Shown here: positions 5,941 through 63,787 of the stretch, piece by piece
Position numbering within the stretch: the first letter of the stretch is position 1
Layout: every line of letters starts with the position of its first letter
DNA from: Serripes groenlandicus
Lineage: Eukaryota > Mollusca > Bivalvia > Cardiida > Cardiidae
Assembly: GCA_031761405.1 (NCBI GenBank)
Contig: JASEVX010000003.1
Coordinates: forward strand, 148,276,555 to 148,340,554
Direction: 5' to 3'
DNA length: 64,000 bases
Notes under the pieces: model-generated
What the model saw: only the letters and a program-made list of their open reading frames with translations
Databases searched by the model: none
What the model was told of the DNA's origin: nothing
Position numbers and translations under genes: made by a program

Positions 5941-6166
5941 ATGGATACTTCATTTATTGGGCTCGTTGTTACAGTATGTGTTATATTTATGATTGGACTT
6001 ACGACATTGATTGTTGTCGGATATTTTAAGTGGAAGGAGTATAAACATGGACGAATAAGACACAATGACTCCAGACGACGATCCCGTGCGACAACGGTAA
6101 ACCATAGAAGACGAACGAGGCGTATACGTGTACGCAATACGGCTGCTGCAACAGTCAATAACTCGG
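5941..6166 (+). CDS. PY-tail single-pass membrane protein, exon 1
   Basis: The ATG at 5941 has G at -3 and +4. The exon encodes residues 1-75: five outside residues (MDTSF), a hydrophobic segment at about 6-29 (IGLVVTVCVIFMIGLTTLIV onward), then KWKEYKHGR and an arginine-rich stretch to residue 65, which fits an N-out, C-in reverse signal anchor. The exon ends at a consensus GTAAGT donor (6167-6172), leaving one base (phase 1). The acceptor at 21052-21053 supplies the matching two bases, giving a total coding length of 612 bases (203 residues plus stop). Residues 62-75 (IRVRNTAAATVNNS) are the source of the 51-bp array that follows. The protein was not recognised; the layout resembles Shisa- or WBP1-like adaptors, without their cysteine-rich ectodomain. 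Confidence 0.6.
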
Positions 6167-9100
6167 GTAAGTGTAACGGGTACGCAATACGGATGCTGCA
6201 ATACTCAATAACTCGGGTATGTGTATACGGGTACGCAATACGGCTGCTGCAATACTCAATAACTCGGGTATGTGTATACGGGTACGCAATACGGCTGCTG
6301 CAACACTCAATAACTCGGGTATGTGTATACGGGTACGCAATACGGCTGCTGCAACACTCAATAACTCGGGTATGTGTATACGGGTACGCAATACGGCTGC
6401 TGCAACACTCACTAACTCGGGTATGTGTATACGAGTACGCAATACGGCTGCTGCAACACTCAATAACTCGGGTATGTGTATACGAGTACGTTATACGGCT
6501 GCTGCAACACTCAATACCTCGGGTATGTGTATACGGGTACGCAATACGGCTGCTGCAACACTCAATACCTCGGGTATGTGTATACGAGTACGCAATACGG
6601 CTGCTGCAACACTCAATAACTCGGGTATGTGTATACGAGTACGCAATACGGCTGCTGCAACACTCAATACCTCGGGTATGTGTATACGGGTACGCAATAC
6701 GGCTGCTGCAACACTCAATAACTCGGGTATGTGTATACGGGTACGCAATACGGCTGCTGCAACACTCAATAACTCGGGTATGTGTATACGGGTACGCAAT
6801 ACGGCTGCTGCAACACTCAATAACTCGGGTATGTGTATACGAGTACGCAATACGGCTGCTGCAACACTCACTAACTCGGGTATGTGTATACGAGTACGCA
6901 ATACGGCTGCTGCAACACTCAATAACTCAGGTATGTGTATACGGGTACGCAATACGGCTGCTGCAACACTCAATAACTCGGGTATGTGTATACGGGTACG
7001 CAATACGGCTGCTGCAACACTCAATAACTCGGGTATGTGTATACGGGTACGCAATACGGCTGCTGCAACACTCACTAACTCGGGTATGTGTATACGGGTA
7101 CGCAATACGGCTGCTGCAACAGTCAATACCTCGGGTATGTGTATACGGGTACGCAATACGGCTGCTGCAACACTCAATACCTCGGGTATGTGTATACGAG
7201 TACGCAATACGGCTGCTGCAACACTCACTAACTCGGGTATGTGTATACGGGTACGTTATACGGCTGCTGCAACAGTCAATACCTCGGGTATGTGTATACG
7301 AGTACGCAATACGGCTGCTGCAACACTCAATAACTCGGGTATGTGTATACGAGTACGCAATACGGCTGCTGCAATACTCAATAACTCGGGTATGTGTATA
7401 CGGGTACGCAATACGGCTGCTGCAACACTCAATAACTCGGGTATGTGTATACGGGTACGCAATACGGCTGCTGCAACACTCAATAACTCGGGTATGTGTA
7501 TACGGGTACGCAATACGGCTGCTGCAACATTCAATAACTCGGGTATGTGTATACGAGTACGTTATACGGCTGCTGCAACACTCAATACCTCGGGTATGTG
7601 TATACGGGTACGCAATACGGCTGCTGCAACACTCACTAACTCGGGTATGTGTATACGAGTACGCAATACGGCTGCTGCAACACTCAATAACTCGGGTATG
7701 TGTATACGAGTACGCAATACGGCTGATGCAACAGTCAATACCTCGGGTATGTGTATACGAGTACGTTATACGGCTGCTGCAACAGTCAATACCTCGGGTA
7801 TGTGTATACGAGTACGTTATACGGCTGCTGCAACACTCAATACCTCGGGTATGTGTATACGAGTACGTTATACGGCTGCTGCAACAGTCAATACCTCGGG
7901 TATGTGTATACGAGTACGTTATACGGCTGCTGCAACACTCAATACCTCGGGTATGTGTATACGGGTACGCAATACGGCTGCTGCAACACTCACTAACTCG
8001 GGTATGTGTATACGAGTACGCAATACGGCTGCTGCAACACTCAATAACTCGGGTATGTGTATACGGGTACGCAATACGGATGCTACAACACTCAATAACT
8101 CGGGTATGTGTATACGAGTACGTTATACGGCTGCTGCAACACTCAATAACTCGGGTATGTGTATACGAGTACGCAATACGGCTGCTGCAACACTCAATAA
8201 CTCGGGTATGTGTATACGAGTACGCAATACGGCTGCTGCAACACTCAATAACTCGGGTATGTGTATACGAGTACGCAATACGGCTGCTGCAACACTCAAT
8301 AACTCGGGTATGTGTATACGGGTACGCAATACGGCTGCTGCAACACTCAATAACTCGGGTATGTGTATACGAGTACGCAATACGGCTGCTGCAACACTCA
8401 ATAACTCGGGTATGTGTATACGAGTACGCAATACGGCTGCTGAAACACTCAATAACTCGGGTATGTGTATACGAGTACGCAATACGGCTGCTGCAACAGT
8501 CAATCATTCGGGTTAGTGTTAGCGATTACGCAATACCACTGAGGCAACACTCAATAACTCGGGTATGTGTATACGAGTACGCAATACGGCTGCTGCATTA
8601 CAAAATAACTCGGGTATGTGTTTACGAGTACGCAATACGGCTGCTGCAACACTCAATAACTCGGGTATGTGTATACGAGTACGCAGTACGGCTGCTGCAA
8701 CACTCAATACCTCGGGTATGTGTTTACGAATACGCAATACGGCTGATGCAACACTCAATACCTCGGGTATGTGTTTACGAATACGCAATACGGCTGATGC
8801 AACACTCAATACCTCGGGTATGTGTATACGAGTACGCAATACGGCTGCTGCAACACTCAATACCTCGGGTATGTGCGAGGTATGTGTATACGAGTACGCA
8901 ATACGGCTGCTGCAACACTCAATAACTCGGGTATGTGTATACGAGTACGCAGTACGGCTGCTGCAACACTCAATACCTCGGGTATGTGTTTACGAATACG
9001 CAATACGGCTGATGCAACACTCAATACCTCGGGTATGTGTATACGGGTACGTTATACGGCTGCTGCAACACTCAATACCTCGGGTATGTGTATACGAGTA

Positions 9101-12100
9101 CGTTATACGGCTGCTGCAACACTCAATACCTCGGGTATGTGTATACGAGTACGTTATACGGCTGCTGCAACACTCAATACCTCGGGTATGTGTATACGAG
9201 TACGTTATACGGCTGCTGCAACACTCAATACCTCGGGTATGTGTATACGAGTACGCAATACGGCTGCTGCAACAGTCAATACCTCGGGTATGTGTATACG
9301 AGTACGCAATACGGCTGCTGCAACAGTCAATACCTCGGGTATGTGTATACGAGTACGTTATACGGCTGTTGCAACACTCACTAACTCGGGTATGTGTATA
9401 CGAGTACGTTATACGGCTGCTGCAACACTCAATACCTCGGGTATGTGTATACGGGTACGCAATACGGCTGCTGCAACACTCAATAACTCGGGTATGTGTA
9501 TACGAGTGCGTTATACGGCTGCTGCAACACTCAATAACTCGGGTATGTGTATACGAGTACGCAATACGGCTGCTGCAACACTCAATAACTCGGGTATGTG
9601 TATACGAGTACGTTTTACGGCTGCTGCAACACTCAATACCTCGGGTATGTGTATACGAGTACGCAATACGGCTGCTGCAACACTCAATACCTCGGGTATG
9701 TGTATACGGGTACGCAATACGGCTGCTGCAACACTCAATACCTCGGGTATGTGTATACGAGTACGTTATACGGCTGCTGCAACACTCAATAACTCGGGTA
9801 TGTGTATACGAGTACGTTATACGGCTGCTGCAACACTCAATAACTCGGGTATGTGTATACGAGTACGCAATACGGCTGCTGCAACAGTCAATACCTCGGG
9901 TATGTGTATACGAGTACGCAATACGGCTGCTGCAACAGTCAATACCTCGGGTATGTGTATACGGGTACGCAATACGGCTCCTGCAACACTCAATAACTCG
10001 GGTATGTGTTTACGGGTACGCAATACGGCTGCTGCAACACTCAATACCTCGGGTATGTGTATACGAGTACGTTATACGGCTGCTGCAACACTCAATAACT
10101 CGGGTAAGTGTATACGAGTACGTTATACGGCTGCTGCAACACTCAATAACTCGGGTATGTGTATACGGGTACGCAATACGGCTGCTGCAACACTCAATAA
10201 CTCGGGTATGTGTATACGAGTACGTTATACGGCTGCTGCAACAGTCAATACCTCGGGTATGTGTATACGGGTACGCAATACGGCTGCTGCAACACTCAAT
10301 ACCTCGGGTATGTGTATACGAGTACGTTATACGGCTGCTGCAACAGTCAATACCTCGGGTATGTGTATACGGGTACGCAATACGGCTGCTGCAACACTCA
10401 ATACCTCGGGTATGTGTATACGAGTACGCAATACGGCTGCTGCAACACTCAATAACTCGGGTATGTGTTTACGAGTACGTTATACGGCTGCTGCAACACT
10501 CAATACCTCGGGTATGTGTATACGAGTACGCAATACGGCTGCTGCAACACTCACTAACTCGGGTATGTGTATACGAGTACGTTATACGGCTGCTGCAACA
10601 CTCAATACCTCGGGTATGTGTATACGAGTACGTTATACGGCTGCTGCAACACTCACTAACTCGGGTATGTGTATACGAGTACGTTATACGGCTGCTGCAA
10701 CACTCACTAACTCGGGTATGTGTATACGAGTACGTTATACGGCTGCTGCAACACTCACTAACTCGGGTATGTGTATACGAGTACGCAATACGGCTGCTGC
10801 AACACTCAATACCTCGGGTATGTGTATACGAGTACGTTATACGGCTGCTGCAACACTCAATACCTCGGGTATGTGTATACGAGTACGTTATACGGCTGCT
10901 GCAACACTCAATACCTCGGGTATGTGTATACGAGTACGCAATACGGCTGCTGCAACACTCAATACCTCGGGTATGTGTATACGAGTACGCAATACGGCTG
11001 ATGCAACACTCAATAACTCGGGTATGTGTATACGAGTACGTTATACGGCTGCTGCAACAGTCAATACCTCGGGTATGTGTATACGAGAACGCAATACGGC
11101 TGCTGCAACACTCAATACCTCGGGTATGTGTATACGAGTACGTTATACGGCTGCTGCAACAGTCAATACCTCGGGTATGTGTATACGAGTACGCGATACG
11201 GCTGCTGCAACACTCAATACCTCGGGTATGTGTATACGAGTACGCAATACGGCTGATGCAACACTCAATAACTCGGGTATGTGTATACGAGTACGCAATA
11301 CGGCTGCTGCAACACTCACTAACTCGGGTATGTGTATACGAGTACGCAATACGGCTGCTGCAACACTCAATACCTCGGGTATGTGTATACGAGTACGTTA
11401 TACGGCTGCTGCAACACTCAATACCTCGGGTATGTGTATACGAGTACGCAATACGGCTGCTGCAACACTCAATAACTCGGGTATGTGTATACGAGTACGT
11501 TATACGGCTGCTGCAACACTCAATAACTCGGGTATGTGTATACGAGTACGTTTTACGGCTGCTGCAACAGTCACTAACTCGGGTATGTGTATACGAGTAC
11601 GCAATACGGCTGCTGCAACAGTCAATACCTCGGGTATGTGTATACGAGTACGTTTTACGGCTGCTGCAACAGTCACTAACTCGGGTATGTGTATACGAGT
11701 ACGTTATACGGCTGCTGCAACAGTCAATACCTCGGGTATGTGTATACGAGTACGTTTTACGGCTGCTGCAACACTCAATACCTCGGGTATGTGTATACGA
11801 GTACGTTATACGGCTGTTGCAACACTCAATAACTCGGGTATGTGTATACGAGTACGCAATACGGCTGCTGCAACACTCAATAACTCGGGTATGTGTATAC
11901 GGGTACGCAATACTGCTGCTGCAACACTCAATAACTCGGGTATGTGTATACGGGTACGCAATACGGCTGCTGCAACACTCACTAACTCGGGTATGTGTAT
12001 ACGGGTACGCAATACGGCTGCTGCAACAGTCAATACCTCGGGTATGTGTATACGAGTACGTTATACGGCTGCTGCAACAGTCAATACCTCGGGTATGTGT

Positions 12101-15100
12101 ATACGAGTACGTTATACGGCTGCTGCAACACTCAATACCTCGGGTATGTGTATACGAGTACGCAATACGGCTGCTGCAACAGTCAATACCTCGGGTATGT
12201 GTATACGAGTACGCAATACGGCTGCTGCAACACTCAATAACTCGGGTATGTGTATACGAGTACGTTATACGGCTGCTGCAACACTCAATACCTCGGGTAT
12301 GTGTATACGGGTACGCAATACGGATGCTACAACACTCAATAACTCGGGTATGTGTATACGAGTACGCAATACGGCTGCTGCAACACTCAATACCTCGGGT
12401 ATGTGTATACGAGTACGCAATACGGCTGCTGCAACACTCACTAACTCGGGTATGTGTATACGAGTACGTTTTACGGCTGCTGCAACAGTCAATACCTCGG
12501 GTATGTGTATACGAGTACGTTATACGGCTGCTGCAACACTCAATACCTCGGGTATGTGTATACGAGTACGCAATACGGCTGCTGCAACACTCAATACCTC
12601 GGGTATGTGTATACGAGTACGCAATACGGCTGCTGCAACACTCAATACCTCGGGTATGTGTATACGAGTACGCAATACGGCTGCTGCAACACTCACTAAC
12701 TCGGGTATGTGTATACGAGTACGCAATACGGCTGCTGCAACACTCAATACCTCGGGTATGTGTATACGAGTACGTTATACGGCTGCTGCAACACTCAATA
12801 CCTCAGGTATGTGTATACGAGTACGTTATACGGCTGCTGCAACACTCAATACCTCGGGTATGTGTATACGAGTACGTTATACGGCTGCTGCAACAGTCAA
12901 TACCTCGGGTATGTGTATACGAGTACGCAATACGGCTGCTGCAACACTCAATACCTCGGGTATGTGTATACGAGTACGTTATACGGCTGCTGCAACACTC
13001 AATACCTCGGGTATGTGTATACGAGTACGCAATACGGCTGCTGCAACACTCAATAACTCGGGTATGTGTATACGGGTACGCAATACGGCTGATGCAACAC
13101 TCAATAACTCGGGTATGTGTATACGAGTACGTTATACGGCTGCTGCAACAGTCAATACCTCGGGTATGTGTATACGGGTACGCAATACGGCTGATGCAAC
13201 ACTCAATAACTCGGGTATGTGTATACGAGTACGTTATACGGCTGCTGCAACACTCAATACCTCGGGTATGTGTATACGAGTACGTTATACGGCTGCTGCA
13301 ACACTCAATACCTCGGGTATGTGTATACGAGTACGCAATACGGCTGCTGCAACAGTCAATACCTCGGGTATGTGTATACGAGTACGCAATACGGCTGCTG
13401 CAACACTCAATAACTCGGGTATGTGTATACGAGTACGCAATACGGCTGCTGCAACACTCAATAACTCGGGTATGTGTATACGGGTACGCAATACGGCTGC
13501 TACAACACTCAATACCTCGGGTATGTGTATACGAGTACGCAATACGGCTGCTGCAACACTCACTAACTCGGGTATGTGTATACGAGTACGCAATACGGCT
13601 GCTGCAACACTCAATACCTCGGGTATGTGTATACGAGTACGTTATACGGCTGCTGCAACACTCAATACCTCAGGTATGTGTATACGAGTACGTTATACGG
13701 CTGCTGCAACACTCAATACCTCGGGTATGTGTATACGAGTACGTTATACGGCTGCTGCAACAGTCAATACCTCGGGTATGTGTATACGAGTACGCAATAC
13801 GGCTGCTGCAACACTCAATACCTCGGGTATGTGTATACGAGTACGTTATACGGCTGCTGCAACACTCAATACCTCGGGTATGTGTATACGAGTACGCAAT
13901 ACGGCTGCTGCAACACTCAATAACTCGGGTATGTGTATACGGGTACGCAATACGGCTGATGCAACACTCAATAACTCGGGTATGTGTATACGAGTACGTT
14001 ATACGGCTGCTGCAACAGTCAATACCTCGGGTATGTGTATACGGGTACGCAATACGGCTGATGCAACACTCAATAACTCGGGTATGTGTATACGAGTACG
14101 TTATACGGCTGCTGCAACACTCAATACCTCGGGTATGTGTATACGAGTACGTTATACGGCTGCTGCAACACTCAATAACTCGGGTATGTGTATACGAGTA
14201 CGCAATACGGCTGCTGCAACACTCAATACCTCGGGTATGTGTATACGGGTACGCAATACGGCTGCTGCAACACTCAATACCTCGGGTATGTGTATACGGG
14301 TACGCAATACGGCTGCTGCAACACTCAATACCTCGGGTATGTGTATACGAGTACGTTATACGGCTGCTGCAACACTCAATAACTCGGGTATGTGTATACG
14401 GGTACGTTATACGGCTGCTGCAACACTCAATACCTCGGGTATGTGTATACGAGTACGTTATACGGCTGCTGCAACAGTCAATACCTCGGGTATGTGTATA
14501 CGGGTACGTTATACGGCTGCTGCAACACTCAATACCTCGGGTATGTGTATACGAGTACGCAATACGGCTGCTGCAACACTCAATACCTCGGGTATGTGTA
14601 TACGAGTACGTTATACGGCTGCTGCAACACTCAATAACTCGGGTATGTGTATACGGGTACGCAATACGGCTGCTGCAACACTCACTAACTCGGGTATGTG
14701 TATACGAGTACGCAATACGGCTGCTGCAACACTCAATACCTCGGGTATGTGTATACGAGTACGTTATACGGCTGCTGCAACACTCAATAACTCGGGTATG
14801 TGTATACGGGTACGCAATACGGCTGCTGCAACACTCAATAACTCGGGTATGTGTATACGAGTACGTTTTACGGCTGCTACAACACTCAATACCTCGGGTA
14901 TGTGTATACGAGTACGCAGTACGGCTGCTGCAACACTCAATACCTCGGGTATGTGTTTACGAGTACGTTATACGGCTGCTGCAACACTCAATACCTCGGG
15001 TATGTGTATACGAGTACGTTATACGGCTGCTGCAACACTCAATACCTCGGGTATGTGTATACGGGTACGCAATACGGCTGCTGCAACACTCAATAACTCG

Positions 15101-16650
15101 GGTATGTGTATACGAGTACGTTTTACGGCTGCTACAACACTCAATACCTCGGGTATGTGTATACGAGTACGCAGTACGGCTGCTGCAACACTCAATACCT
15201 CGGGTATGTGTTTACGAGTACGTTATACGGCTGCTGCAACACTCAATACCTCGGGTATGTGTATACGAGTACGCAATACGGCTGCTGCAACACTCAATAC
15301 CTCGGGTATGTGTATACGAGTACGTTATACGGCTGCTGCAACACTCAATACCTCGGGTATGTGTATACGAGTACGCAATACGGCTGCTGCAACACTCAAT
15401 ACCTCGGGTATGTGTATACGAGTACGTTATACGGCTGCTGCAACACTCAATACCTCGGGTATGTGTATACGAGTACGTTATACGGCTGCTGCAACACTCA
15501 ATACCTCGGGTATGTGTATACGAGTACGCAATACGGCTGCTGCAACACTCAATAACTCGGGTATGTGTATACGAGTACGCAATACGGCTGCTGCAACACT
15601 CAATAACTCGGGTATGTGTATACGAGTACGCAATACGGCTGCTGCAACACTCAATAACTCGGGTATGTGTATACGGGTACGCAATACGGCTGCTGCAACA
15701 CTCAATAACTCGGGTATGTGTATACGGGTACGCAATACTGCTGCTGCAACACTCAATAACTCGGGTATGTGTATACGAGTACGCAATACGGCTGCTGCAA
15801 CACTCAATAACTCGGGTATGTGTATACGAGTACGCAATACGGCTGCTGCAACACTCAATAACTCGGGTATGTGTATACGGGTACGCAATACGGCTGCTAC
15901 AACACTCAATACCTCGGGTATGTGTATACGAGTACGCAATACGGCTGCTGCAACACTCAATACCTCGGGTATGTGTATACGGGTACGCAATACGGCTGCT
16001 GCAACAGTCACTAACTCGGGTATGTGTATACGAGTACGCAATACGGCTGCTGCAACACTCAATACCTCGGGTATGTGTATACGGGTACGCAATACGGCTG
16101 CTGCAACAGTCAATACCTCGGGTATGTGTATACGAGTACGCAATACGGCTGCTGCAACAGTCAATACCTCGGGTATGTGTATACGAATACGCAATACGGC
16201 TGATGCAACACTCAATACCTCGGGTATGTGTATACGAGTACGTTATACGGCTGCTGCAACACTCAATACCTCGGGTATGTGTATACGAGTACGTTATACG
16301 GCTGCTGCAACAGTCAATACCTCGGGTATGTGTATACGAGTACGCAATACGGCTGCTGCAACACTCAATAACTCGGGTATGTGTATACGGGTACGCAATA
16401 CGGCTGCTGCAACACTCAATAACTCGGGTATGTGTATACGAGTACGCAATACGGCTGCTGCAACACTCAATAACTCGGGTATGTGTATACGAGTACGTTA
16501 TACGGCTGCTGCAACACTCACTAACTCGGGTATGTGTATACGAGTACGCAATACGGCTTCTGCATTACACAATAACTCGGGTATGTGTTTACGAGTACGC
16601 AACACGGCTGATGCAACACTCAATAACTCGGTATGTGTATACGATACGCA
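6124..16650. repeat. 51-bp minisatellite (about 205 units) copied from an exon/intron boundary
   Basis: The unit reads tgtatacgRgtacg, YWatacggctgctgcaacaS, tcaataMctcggg, tatg, with recurring two-state sites (cggg/cgag; gcaat/gttat; cactc/cagtc; aataac/aatacc/actaac). Unit 1 is the end of coding exon 1 plus its splice donor. Four of six frames stay open for long distances because 51 is a multiple of three, so the huge ORFs here (up to 2715 codons) are not evidence of translation. An 11-base insertion at about 8874 shifts phase, and a degenerate unit lies at 8500-8545. Higher-order copies exist, including a 17-unit block repeated 867 bp apart. Confidence 0.95.
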
Positions 16651-17940
16651 ATACGGATGTTGTACAAACACTCAATAAGTGTTTGCAAGCAAACAATACA
16701 GATTATGCATAAACACTCAATAGTTCGGATAATTGTACAGGAGCACGCAATACGAAAACAGCGCAAACACTTAATACTTAATATAGTACAAAAACTCAAT
16801 TATTCTGGTAAGCATATGCTATTACGCGATATAGAAACTGTATAAATACTCAATTATTCGGGAAATTCGTTACAGGCACACATAACGAAAACTGCATAAA
16901 TACTCAATAATTCGGGTATGTGTATATGAATACGAAATACTGATACTGCACAAACACTTAGTAATTCGAGTAAGTGTTTACGATTACGCCATACGGATAC
17001 TGAATTAACGTTCAATGATTTGGGTAATTGTATAGGATAACGCGATACGGATATAAAACAAATAATTAAAAATTCGGGTTAAAGTATAGGATAACGCGAT
17101 ACGGATACTGCATAATCACTCAATAGTTCGGGTAATTGTAAATAGGTACGCAACACAGATACTGCACAATCAAATAAATCGGGTAAGTGCTTAAGCGTTC
17201 GCAATGCGGAAACCCTGCAAACACTCAATAGTTCGGGTAATTGTATAGGGGTACGCAATACAGATACTGCACAAACAAATAAATCGGGTAAGTGCATATT
17301 CGTTCGTAATACGGAAAGCGTCAAAACACTCGATAACTCGAGTAATTATATAGGGGTACGCAATACAGAAACTGCACAAACACTCAATAATTCGGATAAT
17401 TGTATAAGAGTATGAAGTACAGATACTGCACAAACACTCAATAATTCGGGTAATTGTATAAGAGTATGAAATACAGAAACTGCACAAACACTCAATAATT
17501 CTGGTAATTGTACAAGAGTACGAATTACAGATACTGCACAAACACTCAATAATTCGGGTAATTGTATAAGAGTTCAAATTCAAAACTGCACAAACACTCA
17601 ATAATTCTAGTAATTGTATAAGAGTTCGAATTACAGATACTGCACAAACACTCAATAATTCGGGTAATTGTATAATAGTATGAAATACAGAAACTTCACA
17701 AACACTCAATACGCAATACAGATACTGCACAAACACTCAATAATTCGGGGAATTGTATACGAGTATGAAATACAGAAACTGCACAAACACTCAATAATTC
17801 TAGTAATTGTATAAGAGTATGAAATACAGAAACTGCACAAACACTCAATAATTCTGGTAATTATATAAGAGTATGAATTACAGACTCTGCACAAACACTC
17901 AATAATCCGGGTAATTGTATAAGAGTATAAATTCAGATAT
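16651..17940. repeat. Decayed 3' tail of the array (about 54-bp units)
   Basis: Units become diverged and longer, of the form caaacactcaataattcggg, taattgtataagagta, tgaaatacagaaactg. They align with the 51-bp unit but differ at many sites and carry indels, so they look like old, no longer homogenised copies. Confidence 0.8.
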
Positions 17941-18143
17941 GTTGACGAATTCGATGCATACTTTTGAACTGAGTATGGGCAAGGGACATATTTTGAAACA
18001 CGAGCGTTTGTGTTCTTTCAAAAACTGTTTTCATGCTGTATGGAATTTACAATTCTCCATATGTTGCCTGTTTTTCTACTGATTTTTTCCAACAAGCATA
18101 CCTCGTTTAAAAATCTTATCATTTCAGGTTCGAACTGTATTTA

Positions 18144-18413
18144 CATATGAGTGGTTCCACAAGAAAACCAACATTGTGGACTCTGCGTAAAGTAACGGTC
18201 CGGATCAGCCTAAGATTGCTGCGTAGGCTAACCCGGATAGACACTTTTTTCCTCCTGTGGATTTTCTGTTTCATAAATCATTACTTTATACTTCTATCCG
18301 CCTGAGACGGAATGTGTCGGCCCGGATTAGCCTGCGCGGACTGCGCAAACTGATCTGGTTCGCTACATTACGCAAAGTCCATAATGTTGGTTTTCTCGTG
18401 GAACGGCACATAT
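18144..18413. mobile_element. MITE-B copy (large palindrome)
   Basis: Ends are inverted: atatgagtggttccacaaga and ttctcgtggaacggcacata. Inside are two related arms with ggatcagcctaag and ggattagcctgcgcgg around a central gtttcataaatcattac. Confidence 0.8.
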
Positions 18414-18425
18414 AGTTGAGTTCTT

Positions 18426-18854
18426 TAAGCCTTTACGACATACGACAAATATGCAGCAGACGACTTTGAAATCATCCAGACAATGATATGGAATCTCACC
18501 TTTAATGAAACCCTTTCCCTCATATAGACGCTTTCTGACGCCTCTGCAGCAGACGGCTTTTTGAAAACATAGTGACAAAAGAAGAAATTGCACAGAACGT
18601 GCAATTTCTCCTTTTGTCACAATGTTTTCCACTTTTAGTCATAGGTTATCCATCTGACAAAATACGTTCAAAGTCATCTGCTGCAGAATTGCCGTATGAG
18701 GGAAAGGGTTAAAAGTTAAATCGCGCGGAAAGCACTGTGGCAAAAGGAGAAATAACTTCGTATGATCTATTTTATCCTTTTTATCACAAGGTTGTTTTCA
18801 AAAGACATGTGCTGCAAATGCGTCAGAAAGCGTCTACATGAGGAAAAGGGTTAA
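18426..18854 (+). mobile_element. Older MITE-A copy split by a younger one
   Basis: The left half (ctttacgacatacgac ... to about 18506) and right half (about 18720, gtggcaaaaggag, to TTAA at 18851-18854) belong to one element interrupted by the copy at 18507-18712. Confidence 0.65.
18507..18712 (-). mobile_element. MITE-A copy nested in another MITE-A
   Basis: Runs from accctttccctcatatagac to gtatgagggaaagggttaa. It lies inside the split copy at 18426-18854. Confidence 0.75.
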
Positions 18855-18931
18855 GCCTTTTAGCAATGGTCTTAACATGATTTAAGATGGATAATTCCGA
18901 ATATTATTCTATTTTGTTTATATAGATTTGT

Positions 18932-19422
18932 GATGTGAGCCGTTCCGGTAGAAAAACAACAGAATTGACTCTGCGTAATGAATCGAACCAGATACGCCGT
19001 TTTCAACATTATTTCAGTTATATCACGGCGACAGTTCACTTATTCATGATCCCTTTGTAAACAAACCAGTACTAGGCTAGAAAATGTGCCTTGCCCAAGG
19101 ACACTCCAACATGACCGTAGTGCCGCGACTGGGGATCGAACCCGGGACACTCCAACATGACCGTAGTGCCGCGACTGGGGATCGAACCCGGTACACTCCA
19201 ACATGACCGTAGTGCCGCGACTGGGGATCGAACCCGGGACATCCGGCGGATTCCTTCTCAAGAGGATAGAGGTATTAGAGTAATCATTCCTGAAACAGAA
19301 AATCCACAGGAAGCGAAAATGTATGTACGGGTTAACCTGCGCGGCATGCTTAGGCTGATCAGGGTCGATACTTTACGAAGGGTCCACAATGTTGGTTTTC
19401 TCGTAATTCGGCTCATATATAA
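18932..19422. mobile_element. MITE-B copy split by a SINE
   Basis: The left end (gtgagccgttccggtagaaa) is separated from the middle and right end (gattccttctcaagagg ... ggttttctcgtaattcggct) by a reverse-oriented SINE at 18987-19246. Confidence 0.7.
18987..19246 (-). mobile_element. tRNA-derived SINE with triplicated head
   Basis: Reverse orientation: tail gccgttttcaacattatttc, body attcatgatccctttgtaaa, then three tandem copies of a 46-bp segment (19101, 19147, 19193) that carry the B-box-like ggggatcgaacccggg. Confidence 0.65.
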
Positions 19423-19515
19423 ATGGTGAAGAAACACTGCTCCTACGTGGAATCTTTTACTTGTCCGCAAAACATGTAGCTTGAGCTACAGTCATGAGTA
19501 CCAGGAGTGGGGATT

Positions 19516-19815
19516 ATGATTAAAGTTTTGATATTCGTCCAAGTCATTTTGTGTACATCGCTCATTGCTTTAAGTAAGGAAAATAAACATCAAGTTCCGA
19601 AATTTTTGAAATTAATGCCAATTGCGAGCGTTTCTGGGAGCATCCGTGTTGATTGTGCGCAAAAATGGCGAACATTGAATACCCTGATAATCTGCGATAA
19701 GGCGCAGTCAACTCCGGATATAAGCTGTACGCAAAGTCTCGAAAGTCGGGATTCGTCTGACGTATTCCTTCTAACCCTTTCCGTCATACGACATTTCTGC
19801 AGCAGACGACTTTGA
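19516..19815 (+). CDS. Candidate small secreted protein exon, ending in a MITE
   Basis: From the ATG at 19516 the frame starts MIKVLIFVQVILCTSLIALS, a plausible signal peptide, followed by KENKHQ. Three cysteines follow (in DCAQKW, ICDKAQ and SCTQSL). The frame enters a MITE-A copy at 19771 and stops at 19815, so the native C-terminus is either lost or spliced away; a GTAAGG just after the signal peptide codons is a possible donor. No family was recognised. It would sit inside the long intron of the PY-tail gene. It could equally be a chance ORF. Confidence 0.25.
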   Translation: MIKVLIFVQVILCTSLIALSKENKHQVPKFLKLMPIASVSGSIRVDCAQKWRTLNTLIICDKAQSTPDISCTQSLESRDSSDVFLLTLSVIRHFCSRRL

Positions 19816-19918
19816 ACGTATTGTGTCAAAAAATAGAATCTTCTTTTGTCACTATGTTTTCAAAAAAGCCGTCTGCTGCAGAGGCGTCAGAAAGCGTCTA
19901 TATGAGGGAAAGGGTTAA
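19771..19918 (+). mobile_element. MITE-A copy, internally deleted
   Basis: Both ends are clear (ctaaccctttccgtcatac and gagggaaagggttaa), but the left arm of the internal hairpin is missing. Confidence 0.8.
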
Positions 19919-20665
19919 CGACCACAAATACATAGCTTATTAAAACACGCTGTTTGAATGAGATTGTTAACAACCCAATTATAATTGATTAAGCAGGATA
20001 TGACTTTTCTTTTGGTGCATCGAAAAGAAGAACTTGGGAATTCAATACATATCTGACTTACCAAAGTGTATTTACTTATTGCAAGCATAAATCTTGGAAA
20101 AATTTCTCTTGACTGTTTCTTAAAACCGAAAAACTGCAGATAATAACAGGTTGATTGAAAATGGTCGCAGTCTAGAAATAGTGCTGTCTACTCGAATTGT
20201 CCATTTTAAAGATATTGTAGTATTAGACAGTTTACTCTTGGCTGTTTCCGGTACTAGCGATATATAAACTATCGTCTCATTCAGTGTCAAGATACGTGTG
20301 TTTATTTCGCCGCCCACGAAATTCTAGCAATTTCATTGGTTAAAGCGTGTCACGTGCAGACCCACTATATTTCTATAGGGAGCGAGTAAATTCCATAGGG
20401 GGGTGAGTAAAGTAAAATAGTCAGTTCAAAGGTTGGTTTTCGTAAAGTGGCTCTCAAATGTTACCAGTTACCCAGAAAAAAATGAAATGAATTGCAATAA
20501 ATGTGTTCATGTTGAACCGGTGTATGTTTTTAAATAATATATCTATTCCAATTCTTTAATCAATATTGATAGATCTTTTACTCGTGACGTCATATTATGC
20601 TATCAACAAATATCAACAAGTTACAGTATAGTTTAGTTTAAAGTGGTCGACGAAATAAATACATC
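19919..20665. other. Intronic stretch, no gene recognised
   Basis: Contains a short piece (ctatatttctatagggagcg, near 20365) related in sequence to the inverted repeat at 20666-20801. Nothing else was recognised. Confidence 0.35.
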
Positions 20666-20801
20666 ATTGGGTTTGTTACTGACCCACTACGGAAATATAG
20701 GGGGTCTGTTGAATGTATAGGGGGACTCGGCTATCGCCTCGCCTCCTATTAATTATACAGACCCCCCTATATTTCCGTAGTGGGTCAGTAACAAACCCAA
20801 T
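20666..20801. repeat. Long inverted repeat (about 44-bp arms)
   Basis: The left arm begins ATTGGGTTTGTTACTGACCC and continues cactacggaaatatagggggtctgt. The right arm is its reverse complement with about one base difference, ending gggtcagtaacaaacccaat. The spacer is about 45 bp. It lies about 250 bp upstream of the terminal exon at 21054. Confidence 0.85.
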
Positions 20802-21053
20802 AACTTATAATATCGAAATAATCGACTTGAATTGGCCTATAGAAAATGATATATTCCATTGGTTATCTCCCCTGATTATAAGTGTCATATGATTTAATAC
20901 TTCCGCTTTTCCACTTGTTACTTATATCTGGACTGGTTTTGCACCATTCAGTTAGCAACATTTTAGTATTAGTTTCATGTTTTGTAAAATTAGCATTCCT
21001 CTGATCTAAAGAAGAGATGACAGAAATCGAATTTCTTAATTCTTCACTTTCAG

Positions 21054-21439
21054 TTCAAATCGTGATGCAACCGCCACCATATTCACTAATTGACGGAGAG
21101 GCCCCGCCCCCTTACACACCTTATGCTGTCCTGGAACCTACTGCTAGACGGGACAGTATAGCTACAAGACCAAGCCCTTGTCATACTCCGAGACCTCTAC
21201 CCAATCTCAATGAACAAACAACACAACCACAACAGTTCTATGGGTCGCATACAACAGAACGACAACAGTTTACCGGGCGACACCGTATGTCACTTCATAC
21301 CGGAAGTACGAACACTCCTATGACAACACCAGCCGGAAGTATGTTTACAACGTCTATAGGAGGGACTCGGGACACATCCGCTTCGTCGAACATGAGATCA
21401 GTGAACATGATTCATATTATAAACGATGTACAAATATAG
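21054..21439 (+). CDS. PY-tail single-pass membrane protein, terminal exon
   Basis: A pyrimidine-rich acceptor (ttcttcactttcag) ends at 21053. The two leading bases complete the codon started by exon 1 (G+TT, Val76). The exon encodes residues 76-203 and stops at TAG 21437-21439. PPPY lies at about 82-85 and PPPYTPY at about 93-99; such motifs bind WW domains, including those of NEDD4-family ubiquitin ligases (general knowledge). The rest of the tail is rich in Thr, Ser, Pro and Gln, with no further membrane segment, as expected for a disordered cytoplasmic adaptor tail. A stand-alone ORF from an ATG at 21017 also exists, but the acceptor and phase match favour splicing. An AATAAA lies at 21740-21745. 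Confidence 0.6.
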
Positions 21440-21776
21440 GTGAATATAAAACATGATATCATCTTGCGGACTTTAAGGCCAAAGAGAAATAACAAAATCC
21501 GCCTTATTTATGCTGGCCATGATAAGGCGAACTAGGACAAGCTCTTAAAATTAGTAGGTACAAATAATAAGTATGTAAAACCTAAACATGGTAGATCTTG
21601 CCGAATGAAGACAAATGTTGAACTAGATTGAGAAAGTTTCCTAAATACGTCCAATACATAACTGCGATATTTTCAAAAAGTATAAGTGAAATGAAAGAGA
21701 AGTAAAATAGAATATATAAATATTTCTTGAGAAAATGAAAATAAAATGATATTCATACGACTATTAATGAGATAGT
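21440..21776 (+). other. Probable 3' UTR of the PY-tail gene
   Basis: AT-rich, non-coding, with a candidate polyadenylation hexamer AATAAA at 21740-21745, just before a MITE-A. Confidence 0.4.
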
Positions 21777-22006
21777 TCAACCCTTTCCCTCATATAGACG
21801 CTTTCTGACGCCTCTGCAGCAGACGGCTTTTTGAAAACATAGTGACAAAAGAAGTAATTGCACAAAACGTGCAATTTCTCTTTTTGCCACAATGTTTTCC
21901 ACTTTTTGTCATAGGTTATCCATTCAATTATGGAGATTTTCTATTTTTTGACAAAATACGTTCAAAGTCGTCTGCTGCAGTATTGCCGTATAAGGGGAAG
22001 GGTTAA
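21777..22006 (-). mobile_element. MITE-A copy
   Basis: Full length; starts accctttccctcatatagac and ends gaagggttaa. Confidence 0.85.
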
Positions 22007-22441
22007 CCGATATTTACGTACCTACATAAATGACATGATTCTTAATTTCACGATCTTCTTAAAATTTGATATGCTCGTTCATGACCAGTTGATGTATCAT
22101 TATTAATTGAGTTTAATCTATATTGCTTACAATCACAACAACAACATATACACATCATTAGAAGAGTCCATAAAAGCTCCCTTACAAACTATGTTTACGA
22201 TGTGTATGTATACATTGTCATGCGTTGCTGTGTAATTAGGTATGAGACGGGTGTCCAACCAGTTTGATTGTCGGTTTGGAATATCCATTAATACAATTCC
22301 AAAAAAACTTTCGAAATAAAAGATGTACCTTCTCACCTAAATTGGGCATTTATATTGTTATGTTTTGTATTTGAGTTTCCTTTATGAAAATTCTATCAAA
22401 ACAATGGTTGTTACAATCAGACAATATACAATGCGTTACCA
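22007..22441. other. Non-coding stretch, nothing recognised
   Basis: AT-rich, without domain-bearing frames or repeat ends. Confidence 0.4.
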
Positions 22442-22670
22442 TTAACACTTTTCCACCTACAACAAATCTGCAGCAGTCGACTTTGAAAGCATACCCGAAA
22501 ATGTTGGAAACTCCCTGTAAAAGAAAGTACAATAATTGAATATTTTTTAAAACATGGTGACAAAAGGAGAAATTGCTCGTTTTGAGCAATTTCTTCTTTT
22601 GTCGCCAGGTTTTCAAAAAGCCGTCTGCCGCAGAGGCATCAGAAAGCGTCTATATAAGGGAAAGTGTTAA
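22442..22670 (+). mobile_element. MITE-A copy
   Basis: TTAA at both ends (22442-22445, 22667-22670), with the internal hairpin gaaattgctcgttttgagca. Confidence 0.85.
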
Positions 22671-23486
22671 CCAATAAGAACAGGAGTTTTATTCGGTCAG
22701 TTCGAATAACCAAGATTCGAGTTCCTACAGGCTATAACATGTATAAGCAATAGTCTGTGGGTTTGTATAAGCATTGGGGGGGGGGGGGGGTTGCTGTTGT
22801 AGCGCTTATATAGTAAGTTTGTATATCCAATAGCTCTCTACATTCTTGGTGACTTTGTACAAACAATATTTACGAACCTGTATAATTTTCAGAATGTTTT
22901 TAAATATATTATGTTATGTAATATAGTCATTATTAATCTCATTAAAATTCAGATTAAAATACTTCACAGCACGTATATTGGATCTGACGACAACGCATAC
23001 AATGCCTTCTCCTATTGACCCTTTATACTTGAATAATCATGAGCAGGTGCTCGTTTTCTGACTAATTGAAATTTACACAATACAACTAAGTATAGATTTT
23101 TTTAGAAGCGGAATCTCGACAATCACCGCTTCTCTACCTCGTTTATTTATAAGGATTATCTCCCCTGTTTTATACTTTTCGATTTTGTAGGCGGAAATTG
23201 GATTTGTTGATGAGACGACCCGAGCGCAGTTTTATGTCTGGATTTAATGCGTAGAGCCAAGAGACGATGTTCGGTTACTTGTATTACCAAGATATGGGTA
23301 CCGTAATGTCATCTAAGATGCTATTTATACCAGCAGATAAACCTTAAAAGACAGTGAATGGTAATAAGACCTGGAATATCCTGTTGACATTATCACTAAG
23401 AACCTTTTTTTTTAAATAATGTCTTACACTTTAATGGAGAAGATCTTGCTACCTATTAATACACTGTTCGCAAATGCACGTGTTGT
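22671..23486. other. Non-coding stretch with a G15 run
   Basis: A run of 15 G lies at 22776-22790. The rest is AT-rich with no recognised gene. Confidence 0.45.
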
Positions 23487-23710
23487 TTAACCCTTCCCCC
23501 ACGTGCAGCGGTCGACTTTCGAAAACTTTGTGGCAAAAAGGAGAAATTTATCATATTCAGTAAATTCTCCTTTTGTCACGATGTTTAAAACTCTTTTCAA
23601 TAATTAAACATTATTTCCTGGAGATTTTGTATATTTTGACTGATATAATATATATATATATATGTTTGAAATCGTCTGCTGCAAATTCTTTATATGCGGG
23701 AAAGTATTAA
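23487..23710 (-). mobile_element. MITE-A copy, diverged
   Basis: TTAA at both ends. The interior has the gaaatttatc/agtaaattctcc hairpin and a short (TA)n insert near 23645. Confidence 0.7.
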
Positions 23711-24155
23711 CAATGCGGATATCGGAATTCCGGCGGAAAACAATAATACAAGATGGGGATAATACTACGCACTGAAATAAAAATAAAAATCATGTGGGTA
23801 CGAATTCTCTAAAATATAGTCATTGTGGCACTACGGAATGTCAGAGACTGTACAAGTGTGGCGATTATCTTCAGAAATTATTATCCACCATTTAGAAATG
23901 CTCATTCTGCTAAACTACTCAATTAGAACTATAGTGCTTGAAATTGACATGTCTTTTGGTTAATGAAGAATGAATAACGTAGGCAAGGCAAAACTACACT
24001 ATATTTTGTTTACACATGTTTGGTGAAATATTATTTACACGTATTCAAATAAAAGTAAAGTAAGTCAAGAATTGTTCGTGTGTTCATTTGTTATAGAATC
24101 ATCCATATTGAAAGGGCCAGTCAATTGTCTGTGTCCTGAACACACAATCTACTTC
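23711..24155. other. Non-coding stretch, nothing recognised
   Basis: No gene or repeat ends were seen. Confidence 0.4.
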
Positions 24156-25192
24156 CCTAGGTGTGTTCGTTATGTTAGGCGCCTCTACTTCCCTAGGTGT
24201 GTTCGTTATGTTAGGCGCCTCTACTTCCCTATGTATGTTCGTTATGTTAGGCGCGTCATGTTCCCTAGGTGTGTTCGTTATGTTAGCGCCTTTACTTCCC
24301 TAAGTATGTTCGTTATGTTAGGCGCGTCATGTTCCCTAGGTGTGTTCGTTATGTTAGGCGCCTCTACTTCCCTAGGTGTGTTCGTTATACTATGCGCGTC
24401 TTGTTCCCTAGGTGTGTTCGTTATGTAAGGCGCCTCTACTTCCCTAGGTGTGTTCGTTATGCTAGGCGCGTCTTGTTCCCTATGTGTGTTCGTTATGCTA
24501 GGCGCGTCTTGTTCCCTATGTGTGTTCGTTATGCTAGGCGCGTCTTGTTCCCTAGGTGTGTTCGTTATGTTAGGCGCCTCTACTTCCCTAGGTGTGTTCG
24601 TTATGCTAGGCGCGTCTTGTTCCCGATGTGTGTTCGTTATGTTAGGCGCCTCTACTTCCCTAGGTGTGTTCGTTATGCTAGGCGCGTCTTGTTCCCTATG
24701 TGTGTTCGTTATGCTAGGCGCGTCTTGTTCCCTAGGTGTGTTCGTTATGCTAGGCGCGTCTTGTTCCCTATGTGTGTTCGTTATGTTAGGCGCCTCTACT
24801 TCCCTAGGTGTGTTCGTTATACTATGCGCGTCTTGTTCCCTAGGTGTGTTCGTTATGTTAGGCGCCTCTACTTCCCTAGGTGTGTTCGTTATGCTAGGTG
24901 CGTCTTGTTCCCTATGTGTGTTCGTCATGCTAGGCGCGTCTTGTTCCCTATGTGTGTTCGTCATGCTAGGCGCCTCTTCTTTCCTATGTGTGTTCGTCAT
25001 GCTAGGCGCCTCTTCTTTCCTATGTGTGTTCGTCATGCTAGGCGCCTCTACTTCCCTAGGTGTGTTCGTTATGTTAGGCGCCTCTACTTCCCTAGGTGTG
25101 TTCGTTATGTTAGGCGCCTCTACTTCCCTAGGTGTGTTCGTCATGCTAGGCGCCTCTTCTTCCATAGTTATGTTCGTTAAGCTAGGCGCCTT
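24156..25192. repeat. 36-bp minisatellite (about 29 units)
   Basis: The unit is ccctaggtgtgttcgttatg + ttaggcgcctctactt, with variant halves (gcgtcttgtt, gcctcttctt). On the minus strand it reads as a 12-residue repeat (EAPNITNTPREV / QDAPSITNTHRE), and two + frames are also open. Open frames on both strands, with no flanking coding signal, argue for a non-coding array. Confidence 0.9.
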
Positions 25193-39198: not shown

Positions 39199-42068
39199 GT
39201 AGACGATTGTTTGGAAATGTCAAACATGATCGATACACATGTTCGTGAGTTATTACAGTATAGGTAGACGTTTGTTTGGAAATGTCAAACATGACCGATA
39301 CACATGTTCGTGAGTTATTACAGTATAGGTAGACGATTGTTTGGATACACATGTTTGTAAGGTTAATGTCAAACATGACCGATACACATGTTTGTAATGT
39401 TAATGTCAAACATGACCGATACGCATGTTTGTAAGGTTAATGTCAAACATGACCGATACGCATGTTTGTAAGGTTAATGTCAAACATGACCGATACATAA
39501 GTTCGTAAGGTTAATGTCAAACATGACCGATACACATGTTTGTAAGGTTAATGTCAAACATGACCGATACGCATGTTCGTAAGGTTAATGTCAAACATGA
39601 CCGATACGCATGTTTGTAAGGTTAATGTCAAACAGGACCGATACACAAGTTCGTAAGGTTAATGTCAAACATGACCGATACACATGTTTGTAAGGTTAAT
39701 GTCAAACATGACCGATACGCATGTTTGTAAGGTTCATGTCAAACATGACCGATACGCATGTTTATAAGGTTAATGTCAAAAAGGACCGATACACAAGTTC
39801 GTAAGGTTAATGTCAAACATGACCGATACACATGTTTATAAGGTTAATGTCAAACATGACCAATACACATGTTCGTACGGTTAATGTCAAACATGACCGA
39901 TACACATGTTTGTAAGGTTAATGTCAAACAGGACCGATACACAAGTTCGTAAGGTTAATGTCAAACATGACCGATACACATGTTTGTAAGGTTAATGTCA
40001 AACATGACCTATACGCATGTTTGTAAGGTTAATGTCAAACAGGACCGATACACATGTTTGTAAGGTTAATGTCAAACAGGACCGATACACAAGTTCGTAA
40101 GGTTAATGTCAAACATAACCGCTACACATCTTTGTAAGGTTAATGTCAAACATGACCGATACACATGTTTGTAAGGTTAATGTTAAACATGACCGATACA
40201 CATGTTCGTAAGGTTAATGTCAAACATGACCGATACACATGTTTGTAAGGTTAATGTTAAACATGACCGATACACAAGTTCGTAAGGTTAATGTCAAACA
40301 TGACCGATACGCATGTGTGTAAGGTTAATGTCAAACATGACCGATACACAAGTTCGTAAGGTTAATGTCAAACATGACCGATACGCATGTGTGTAAGGTT
40401 AATGTCAAACATGACCGATACACAAGTTCGTAAGGTTAATGTCAAACATGACCGATACGCATGTGTGTAAGGTTAATGTCAAACATGACCCATACACATG
40501 TTTGTAAGGTTAATGTCAAACATGACCGATACACATGTGTGTAAGGTTAATGTCAAACATGACCGATACACATGTTTGTAAGGTTAATGTCAAACATGAC
40601 CGATACACATGTTTGTAAGGTTAATGTCAAACATGACCGATACACATGTTTGTAAGGTTAATGTCAAACATGACCGATACGCATGTTCGTAAGGTTAATG
40701 TCAAACATGACCGATACGCATGTTTGTAAGCTTAATGTCAAACAGGACCGATACACAAGTTCGTAAGGTTAATGTCAAACATGACCGATACGCATGTTTG
40801 TAAGGTTAATGTCAAACATGACCGATACGCATGTTTGTAAGATTTATGTCAAACATGACCGATACACGTGTTCGTAAGGTTAATGTCAAACATGACAGAT
40901 ACGCATGTTTGTAAGGTTAATGTCAAACATGACCGATACACATGTTTATAAGGTTAATGTCAAACATGACCGATACGCATGTTCGTAAGGTTAATGTCAA
41001 ACATGACCGATACGCATGTTTATAAGGTTAATGTCAAACATGACCGATACGCATGTTCGTAAGGTTAATGTCAAACATGACCGATACGCATGTTTGTAAA
41101 GTTAATGTCAAATATGACCGATACGCATGTTTGTAAGGTTAATGTCAAACATGACCGATACGCATGTTTGTAAGGTTAATGTCAAACATGACCGATACAC
41201 ATGTTCGTAAGGTTAATGTCAAACATGACCGATACGCATGTTCGTAAGGTTAATGTCAAACATGACCGATGACCGATACACATGTTTGTAAGGTTAATGT
41301 TAAACATGACCGATACACATGTTCGTAAGGTTAATGTCAAACATGACCGATACGCATGTTCGTAAGGTTAATGTCAAACATGACCGATACGCATGTTTGT
41401 AAGGTAAATGTCAAACATGACCGATACACATGTTCGTAAGGTTAATGTCAAACATGACCGATACGCATGTTCGTAAGGTTAATGTCAAACATGACCGATG
41501 ACCGATACACATGTTTGTAAGGTTAATGTCAAACATGACCGATACACAAGTTCGTAAGGTTAATGTCAAACATGACCGATACGCATGTTTGTAAGGTTTA
41601 TGTCAAACATGACCGATACGCATGTTTGTAAGGTTAATGTCAAACATGACCGATACACAAGTTCGTAAGGTTAATGTCAAACATGACCGATACACATGTT
41701 TGTAAGGTTAATGTCAAACAGGACCGATACACAAGTTCGTAAGGTTAATGTCAAACATGACCGATACGCATGTTTGTAAGGTTAATGTCAAACATGACCG
41801 ATACACATGTTCGTAAGGTTAATGTCAAACATGACCGATACGCATGTTCGTAAGGTTAATGTCAAACATGACCGATGACCGATACACATGTGTGTAAGGT
41901 TTATGTCAAACATGACCGATACACATGTTCGTAAGGTTAATGTCAAACATGACCGATACACATGTTTGAAAGGTTAATGTCAAACATGACCGATACACAT
42001 GTTTGTAAGGTTAATGTCAAACATAACAGATACACATGTTCGTGAGTTATTACAGTATAGGTAGACGA
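39199..42068. repeat. 37-bp minisatellite (about 72 units) inside a 66-bp repeat
   Basis: The inner unit is ggttaatgtcaaacatgacc + gatacacatgtttgtaa. At the left edge are two 66-bp units (offset 39261 to 39327) containing taggtagacg and gttcgtgagttattacagta; the same block closes the array at 42040-42068. A gaccgatgaccgat slip recurs at about 41263, 41493 and 41870, marking copied blocks. Confidence 0.9.
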
Positions 42069-61732: not shown

Positions 61733-62087
61733 GTATGTTAACTGTTCTGTCTGATTTTAGAATATAAACAAATAATCAAATCGACAGTGTGCTCTGTGAG
61801 CCGCTCTGTTAGCCAATGTAGTGTTTATTGTCATAAAATAAGAATTAGAAACTTTGCGACAAAATAGGAAATTGCACATTATGAGCAAATTCTTCATGTT
61901 TCAACATTTTCCTTGAGCATCAAAAATCCATTTAGTCTGATCTACACTAACTGTAGACATAATTGTATTTTGTGGCGACAAACTTATATATGTTTTACTT
62001 ATATTATGGGCCGGCGGTTTAATTGGTTTAATGGAATATTAGAAATCTTGAAAATGTGCACGCCAATCCATCAGTCGTATACTAGCT

Positions 62088-63578: not shown

Positions 63579-63787
63579 GTAAGTAGACCTACCTTCTAAA
63601 GCATTCATCTTGCCTTTTAAACAGTTATTATAATGAAAAGAAACGCATCTTCACACAAGGGTGAGTATTGATACCGTATAAGAATTATATCAGTTTACTG
63701 AATGGAATATCATGAAAATATATGCATAAAACAACATCAGCATACACTGCATGTAGGATTCATTAGACAACGAATGTCTTGTTTTCT
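63579..63787 (+). other. SLC17 intron 3 (start)
   Basis: Begins GTAAGT. Nothing else was recognised before the terminal MITE-A. Confidence 0.7.

Follow-up and report, generated by a model that had tools for sequence, protein, structure and literature searches.

A minisatellite that was probably founded on a splice junction fills much of the first intron of a predicted gene in Serripes groenlandicus. In the window analysed (64,000 nucleotides of contig JASEVX010000003.1), the 51-bp repeat unit joins the end of a predicted coding exon to its 5′ splice site, in the manner of the "mirages" of amphioxus, and on the most likely reading of the sequence the first donor would be used and the whole array spliced out as a passive intron. 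The underlying two-exon gene model, with 5941–6166 as an exon, is our inference from the following features:

5941..6166, plus strand: predicted coding exon 1, an ORF from the ATG at 5941 with an in-frame join to exon 2.
6167..6172, plus strand: predicted native 5′ splice site GTAAGT, with a predicted U1 pairing of -13.3 kcal/mol.
6167..21053, plus strand: predicted intron 1, 14,887 bp, core and tail repeats making up about 79% of its length.
21054..21439, plus strand: predicted exon 2, the last coding exon in the model, with two PPxY motifs and a relative, P0001.
5941..8925, plus strand: ORF of 994 aa passing through about 53 units, which a transcript retaining the intron would encode.

The predicted product of exon 1 has a short N-terminus, one transmembrane segment (hydropathy peak of 2.88 over 19 residues) and a basic tail, and it ends in phase 1, the phase that exon 2 needs; the predicted junction 6166/21054 is in frame, and splicing from the first donor would give a full product of 203 aa. 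The relative P0001 is identical to exon 2 in 87 of 126 aligned columns (69% identity). The similarity starts one residue before the junction-spanning valine, i.e. within one residue of the acceptor, and the residues farther upstream differ between P0001 and the predicted protein. The homology search with exon 1 (85-aa query) returned no relatives, so that exon 1 is a predicted exon and the direction from exon to satellite a probable one. Against Pfam the host protein stayed below the curated cut-offs of MLANA (19.9 bits versus 27) and WBP-1 (14.9 versus 28.1). The weak MLANA (Melan-A) match (E 9.4e-4) spans the junction, and was dropped as support for it since shuffle controls showed no specificity: the match was kept in four of four controls with exon 1 shuffled only after the transmembrane segment (E 9.7e-5 to 5.7e-3), while shuffling the whole of exon 1 left E 0.13 in one control and no match in the other three. 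The shuffle controls suggest that the host protein has in common with this family only the layout of a transmembrane segment plus PPxY.

The repeat itself was delineated by Tandem Repeats Finder (period 51, 206.8 copies, 94% matches, score 17890) and by unit-by-unit alignment:

6122..16677, plus strand: 51-bp minisatellite core, 206 aligned units.
6122..6172, plus strand: unit 0, the 5′ edge copy, in which the native donor GTAAGT follows the final 45 bp of exon 1.
6173..6222, plus strand: unit 1, 50 bp, one base short, so that the donors that follow are no longer in the native frame.
8467..8619, plus strand: units 46–48, a divergent internal seam, at distances of 4, 5 and 2 from the nearest other unit.
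8824..8885, plus strand: unit 53, 11 bases longer than the period at 62 bp and bearing two donors, with the exon 1 frame stopping at 8923 beyond it.
12660..13271, plus strand: units 128–139, a block of 12 units that recurs at a shift of 17 units (867 bp).
13527..14138, plus strand: units 145–156, the second copy of this block.
16678..17937 (about), plus strand: degenerate tail of units of about 54 bp, a diverged relative of the 51-bp unit.

These data bear out the tandem array of about 205 copies and 10.5 kb described in a sequence-only reading of this DNA, together with the span of the unit over the end of predicted exon 1 and its 5′ splice site, although the exonic part is 45 bp rather than about 40 and the extent given there leaves out the apparently older 54-bp relative that reaches about 17937. 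The same reading had the donor context preserved in every unit; in fact CGGGTATGT is present in 199 of the 206 aligned units, the other seven comprising three with CAGGTATGT, two with CGGGTAAGT, one with CGGGTTAGT and one with a one-base gap. The two carriers of CGGGTAAGT are unit 0, where it is the exon's own donor, and unit 77. Exactly 51 bp is the length of 203 of the 206 core units, and the mean identity to the consensus is 0.958 (0.71 for the tail against the core consensus); with units 1 and 205 at 50 bp and unit 53 at 62 bp, the array is not in one phase. Only seven units (0, 1, 46, 47, 48, 204 and 205) lie at a distance of at least two columns from every other, unit 0 differing from its nearest neighbour in sequence at three positions. 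This divergence of edges plus a seam is the pattern expected of homogenising tandem arrays, in which unit 0 behaves as an edge copy, and the duplicated 12-unit block is consistent with recent turnover in the one haplotype represented here. Neither the viral contigs nor the GTDB genome contigs contained an exact match to the unit DNA, as expected for an animal repeat, and a search of the window against Rfam gave no matches at the gathering score.

Among 4599 GT sites on the plus strand, one (63579) has a better predicted U1 pairing than the predicted native donor and one (10104, in unit 77) an equal one, as compared with -9.5 kcal/mol for a typical array donor; since unit 77 equals unit 0 and two sites in the tail reach -12.5, the first donor is not marked out by its strength alone. 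At -9.5 or better there are 202 core sites beyond unit 0 (19 per kb), and 13 sites in the 52 kb outside the array family (0.25 per kb). Array and tail together hold 208 consensus donors, of which only the first gives the 203-aa protein; another 53 would truncate it by a stop in exon 2, and the remaining 154 meet the stop at 8923.

As to origin, a short direct duplication at the boundary of exon 1 and intron 1 would have been the seed, and unequal exchange or slippage would then have expanded the array and homogenised its interior; the exon copy (unit 0) and the far end would remain as divergent edges, and an older, decayed 54-bp tail would lie downstream. The first donor (CGG/GTAAGT) would be the normal choice because it comes first and pairs with U1 better than nearly all later ones. 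Given the predicted exon, the claim that the intron opens with a run of decoy donors holds: some 205 consensus-like donors follow, mostly CGG/GTATGT and predicted to be weaker, and the array would leave passively with the rest of the intron. In a hand-laid alignment, seven of the nine substitutions from unit 0 to the tail consensus run from G/C to A/T and none in reverse, a polarity that fits an exon-like founder and subsequent decay.

A less likely account, to which we still give some weight, reverses this order: a 51/54-bp satellite would have reached, or inserted at, the gene, so that exon 1 ends in its first unit and uses a satellite-borne donor. The tail, whose 54-bp units belong to this repeat family and have diverged further, would suit such a history, as would the richness of the window in other minisatellites (the lengths of the 11 compared arrays add up to 19,467 of the 64,000 bases, two of them overlapping by 35 bases), and no relative shows an exon 1 end older than the array. 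The polarity from unit 0 to the tail speaks against it; on the other hand, core versus tail likewise gives eight of nine changes from G/C to A/T, so that the polarity does not single out unit 0, and GC-biased gene conversion could mimic the signal. Moreover, as the tail has 54-bp units while unit 0 and the core have 51, the ancestral unit may have been 54 bp long, unit 0 and the core sharing a loss of 3 bp. What weighs further against a satellite origin is that, when the bases of the unit were shuffled, only 49 of 3000 versions held a donor with a predicted U1 pairing as good as the array's, and that none of the consensus units of nine compared arrays outside the family reaches -9.5 (best -6.1, either strand). 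The end of exon 1 also extends the basic tail of the protein without a stop, and the frame of exon 1 is the only one without a stop in the tail consensus.

Other alternatives concern the working of the array. The sequence-only reading had it that the array might alter splice-site choice, intron retention or co-transcriptional pausing. We regard it as improbable that the array is an active regulatory device, in which its donors compete for U1 or see low-rate use and array length tunes output. Units 1–53 would then yield transmembrane products lacking the PPxY tail and later units transcripts prone to nonsense-mediated decay, and the many U1 sites may also shield the long intron from premature polyadenylation. 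Slightly more doubtful still is the specific version in which the array is a length-variable splicing rheostat, allele length setting the ratio to the full-length protein, with each unit up to 53 adding 17 residues, the transmembrane segment kept and the PPxY tail dropped, and donors beyond leading to decay. The density of core sites and the split of the donors between the exon 2 stop and the stop at 8923 would accord with regulation, as would the reported use of downstream repeat donors in human IFI6 (PMC4526556). So would the lack of AATAAA or ATTAAA in the core, as compared with eight in the tail and remaining intron, except that this absence follows from the repetition of one unit. Against regulation, the variability of the donor columns is just a little below that of the rest of the unit (by variant cells, 5th of 51 six-column and 4th of 51 nine-column windows), tests for selection on the donor or on the frames being negative or weak. 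A three-unit stretch folds no better than shuffles as RNA (z 0.99) or as DNA (z -0.49). The array donors over 5941–9000 are predicted to be less accessible (medians 0.0007 and 0.0011 at two settings) than the unit 0 donor (0.0020 and 0.0053) and than the median of all nine-base sites over most of 5941–9000 (0.0055 and 0.020), all these probabilities being small. The amphioxus cases are reported to leave splicing undisturbed (PMC3087553, PMC3902484).

Two further possibilities at the RNA level were set aside. Units with a C in column 39 (107 of the 206) can fold into a small hairpin that covers the donor, at -2.0 kcal/mol for a 13-base segment taken in isolation and -3.1 for a 16-base one, and sequestration of the donor was considered on this ground; units with C and A were about equally accessible at the short setting, and those with C about threefold less so at the long setting. 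Ratcheting (recursive) splice sites were rejected as well, the core holding too few candidate sites: four occurrences of AGGT and, by a crude rule, only two of YAG after a pyrimidine-rich stretch. This scarcity also makes the units unlikely to serve as exons.

Translation of the repeat within a long repetitive protein we consider very improbable indeed. It is suggested by the 994-aa ORF and by a core consensus open in all three plus-strand frames, a property matched by 696 of 20000 composition shuffles (3.5%). Yet the deficit of one base in unit 1 and the excess of 11 bases in unit 53 shift the frame, and exon 2 needs phase 1, the full product coming from one donor in 208. In two frames the synonymous and non-synonymous variant types stand at 12:25 and 11:26, with 41:112 and 42:111 possible, so that constraint at the protein level is not evident; in the third frame, stops are created by 190 variant cells. 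The 994-aa ORF has no relative at E 0.001 or better among 7991 candidates scored, and its Pfam match to MBB1 (E 4.3e-10, above the cut-off) was put down to a repeat effect. The preferred and fairly likely reading is a boundary-derived array that would be passively removed.

The suggestion that such an array is unusual in kind was not sustained. Minisatellite-like tandem repeats of exon–intron boundaries are described in the amphioxus genes Adh3, globins BflGb6 and BflGb9 and TnC, with similar repeats in PGBD5, and transcript data for Adh3 and the globins are reported to show regular splicing (PMC3087553, PMC3902484). Of the two BflGb6 haplotypes, one is given 6 units and the other 3; BflGb9 has a single duplicate, and PGBD5 a 3 x 108 bp triplication (PMC3087553, PMC3902484). 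The mirages and the present array have in common a repeated boundary (here given the predicted exon), many copies of a splice signal and a homogenised interior from which the edges are excluded; a further parallel lies in degenerate repeats that sit in an intron of a related gene. Set against the counts for the globins and PGBD5, the array has 206 units and 10.5 kb, and its splicing is predicted, whereas that of Adh3 and the globins is reported from transcript data. Its lineage, that of a mollusc, also differs from that of amphioxus.

The human IFI6 minisatellite has a unit of about 12 bp and a few tens of copies. There, too, the repeat unit includes the 5′ splice site that closes an exon, several donors thus standing in tandem, and two downstream repeat units reportedly serve as donors, which yields isoforms (PMC4526556, citing Turri 1995; the report is also cited in PMC2572611 and PMC3618361, and in PMC2915984 on VNTRs in introns); in the clam, by contrast, downstream donors would truncate the predicted product. 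Recent human paralogues bear internal tandem repeats at exon–intron boundaries that alter exon or intron structure, with units averaging about 30 bp and repeated 4 times (PMC2812944), as against 51 bp and 206 units here. Another long minisatellite in the intron of a mollusc gene is that of abalone TSSK1-like, where a 27-bp unit is repeated 62 times in the allele presented and the length varies from individual to individual (PMC6905558), but in the text consulted it is placed in intron 3 and not described as spanning a splice junction. Searches of open-licence papers yielded no boundary-spanning array reported from a mollusc.

Overall, the array joins an already described boundary-spanning class, and its copy number far exceeds the amphioxus counts compared. 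If the model is true, one transcript of a natural gene would hold the real 5′ splice site followed immediately by about 205 near-identical competitors, and donor choice by position versus U1 pairing would be measurable in a single long-read experiment. Use of early decoys would lengthen the product by about 51 nt per step, and unit 77, with a donor equal to the first, would be a built-in control for strength versus order. The model, if correct, would suggest that boundary-spanning minisatellites also occur beyond lancelets and humans and can have copy numbers in the hundreds, and the clam gene would exemplify the idea that repeats of this sort make introns longer or give rise to them.

Cyclic alignment to the 51-bp consensus resolved 6122-18000 into 206 core units (0-205) followed by decayed units of ~54 bp (the tail), the whole lying in a gene predicted from sequence:

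5941-6166, + strand, predicted exon 1, opening with the ATG at 5941
6122-16677, 51-bp core array, 206.8 copies (Tandem Repeats Finder)
6167-21053, + strand, predicted intron
from 16891, in overlapping rows reaching 17937, degenerate period-54 array (Tandem Repeats Finder, separate row)
21054-21439, + strand, predicted exon 2
39344-42040, 37-bp array, 72 copies, elsewhere in the window

The two counts bear out the sequence-only reading of about 205 copies over ~10.5 kb. Unit length is exactly 51 bp in 203 of the 206 core units (units 1, 53 and 205 have 50, 62 and 50 bp, respectively), and mean identity to the consensus is 0.958 in the core versus 0.71 in the tail; the tail value was taken over units 207-231, with unit 206 set aside as transitional and the final unit, 232, as ragged. 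The description of the unit as an exon end plus 5' splice site holds for unit 0 (6122-6172), which consists of the last 45 bp of predicted exon 1 and GTAAGT. The further claim that every unit keeps the donor context was too strong, as CGGGTATGT spans the donor columns in 199 of the 206 core units.

Joining 5941-6166 to 21054-21439 gives a 203-aa protein with a transmembrane segment (hydropathy 2.88), a basic stretch and two PPxY motifs. Its single match at E ≤ 0.001 in a large protein database was P0001 (145 aa, E 3.2e-42). The alignment is confined to exon 2 (identity in 87 of 126 aligned columns) and begins one residue ahead of the junction-spanning valine, residues farther upstream being unlike, so that exon 2 and its acceptor are supported. 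A search with predicted exon 1 returned no candidate relative, so that this exon is supported by its in-frame phase, donor quality and membrane-protein layout. Pfam gives a weak MLANA match that crosses the junction and disappears with either exon alone; since it persisted in 4/4 controls in which the part of exon 1 after the transmembrane segment was shuffled, it is uninformative on where exon 1 ends and was discarded as evidence.

Donors were scored by predicted pairing energy with the U1 5' end. The unit-0 donor (6167) scores -13.3 kcal/mol; of the 4599 plus-strand GT sites, only that at 63579, which lies outside the gene model, surpasses it, and the GTAAGT of unit 77 (10104) ties with it. 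The tail has two GTAAGT sites at -12.5, three CAGGTATGT units reach -10.2, and a typical donor of the array reaches -9.5. This last value is matched or bettered at 202 core sites beyond unit 0 (19 per kb) and at 3 tail sites, versus 13 (0.25 per kb) in the window outside this array family. A donor as good as the array's arose in 49 of 3000 base shuffles of the unit; the best consensus donor among 9 other arrays outside the family scores -6.1, and the 54-bp tail consensus -7.4. The top plus-strand site, 63579 (CAGGTAAGT, -13.7), is close to the window end and possibly belongs to a neighbouring gene.

The pattern [GA]GGTA[AT]GT occurs 208 times in core and tail (205 and 3; none in units 46 and 205, two in unit 53). 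When these donors were joined in silico to exon 2, the full protein was obtained from the first only. A stop followed after about 3 exon-2 residues for 52 donors and after about 13 for one (these 53 lying in units 1-53), while the other 154, from unit 54 onward, meet a stop at 8923 within the array; a separate tally agreed. The later donors fail because unit 1 is one base short and unit 53 then adds 11 bases. By the usual rule of nonsense-mediated decay, and provided that no exon follows exon 2, the 154 transcripts would be targets and the 53 not necessarily.

Tests of donor-column variation, frame and RNA for a function of the array were negative or weak. When the 51 cyclic windows are ordered from least to most variable, the six-column donor window comes fifth, and the nine-column one comes fourth of 51 by variant cells and seventh by variant types. 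Synonymous and non-synonymous variants are near the proportions possible in two frames, giving a negative or weak result for protein constraint, and 190 variant cells create stops in the third; the consensus is open in all three plus-strand frames, as are 696 of 20000 shuffles. Folding of a three-unit RNA showed no advantage over shuffles (z 0.99), and predicted accessibility is lower at array donors than at unit 0 or at the median site of the analysed stretch. AATAAA/ATTAAA is absent from the core, versus 8 in the tail and remaining intron, because the core is one repeated unit. In 107 of 206 units (12 among the first 50 and 95 among the remaining 156), column 39 is a C, allowing a small hairpin over the donor.

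Only units 0, 1, 204, 205 and 46-48 (the last three forming a seam) stand two or more columns apart from every other unit, and a 12-unit block recurs 17 units downstream in the core. In a manual alignment, 9 substitutions separate unit 0 from the tail consensus (7 G/C to A/T, 0 reverse), 9 separate the core from the tail consensus (8 and 0), and 4 separate unit 0 from the core (0 and 1); the sole stop-free frame of the tail consensus is that used by exon 1. Our reading of these sequences is that the founder was probably exon-like and that the tail decayed later. GC-biased conversion in the core is a possible source of the polarity, and a 54-bp ancestor is likewise possible.

The window is rich in minisatellites: 11 compared arrays total 19,467 of 64,000 bases (two overlapping by 35), a sum that leaves out further Tandem Repeats Finder arrays. 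At 24148-25191, 29 copies of a 36-bp unit (containing a pyrimidine stretch, then TAG and GTGTGT) resemble an acceptor plus weak donor (-6.1), with no gene boundary identified there. A compound 33-47-bp array (62083-62883) lies near an ORF (61276-61767) matching the Major Facilitator Superfamily (E 4.5e-26). Several copies of a dispersed element near the gene (18500-23710), with ends by eye like CCCTTTCCCTCATATAGACGC and its inverse, are possibly a short inverted-repeat transposon. Three 46-bp copies at 19099-19241 contain GGGGATCGAACCCG, reminiscent of a tRNA B box or of part of a SINE; an Rfam scan of the window had no match at gathering score.

In amphioxus, mirages, tandem repeats of exon-intron boundaries in Adh3, globins and TnC, with similar ones in PGBD5, are reported to leave splicing undisturbed (PMC3087553, PMC3902484). 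The divergent edge and seam units here resemble the mirages' cluster boundaries, reported to be excluded from homogenisation (PMC3087553). The present array differs in its size (206 units, 10.5 kb) from the amphioxus cases whose copy numbers were compared, and in its out-of-frame later donors. In human IFI6, downstream repeat units are reported as used donors (PMC4526556), and recent human paralogues are described with shorter repeats at boundaries (PMC2812944). In an abalone gene, an intronic minisatellite of 27-bp units (62 repeats in the shown allele) is polymorphic and is not described there as boundary-spanning (PMC6905558). Boundary repeats being known in amphioxus and IFI6, the array is therefore of a known kind, differing in size and frame. 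Overall, of the original judgement that this minisatellite is unusual, the size stands: the array is striking for that and for its built-in read-out, and its principle is not new.
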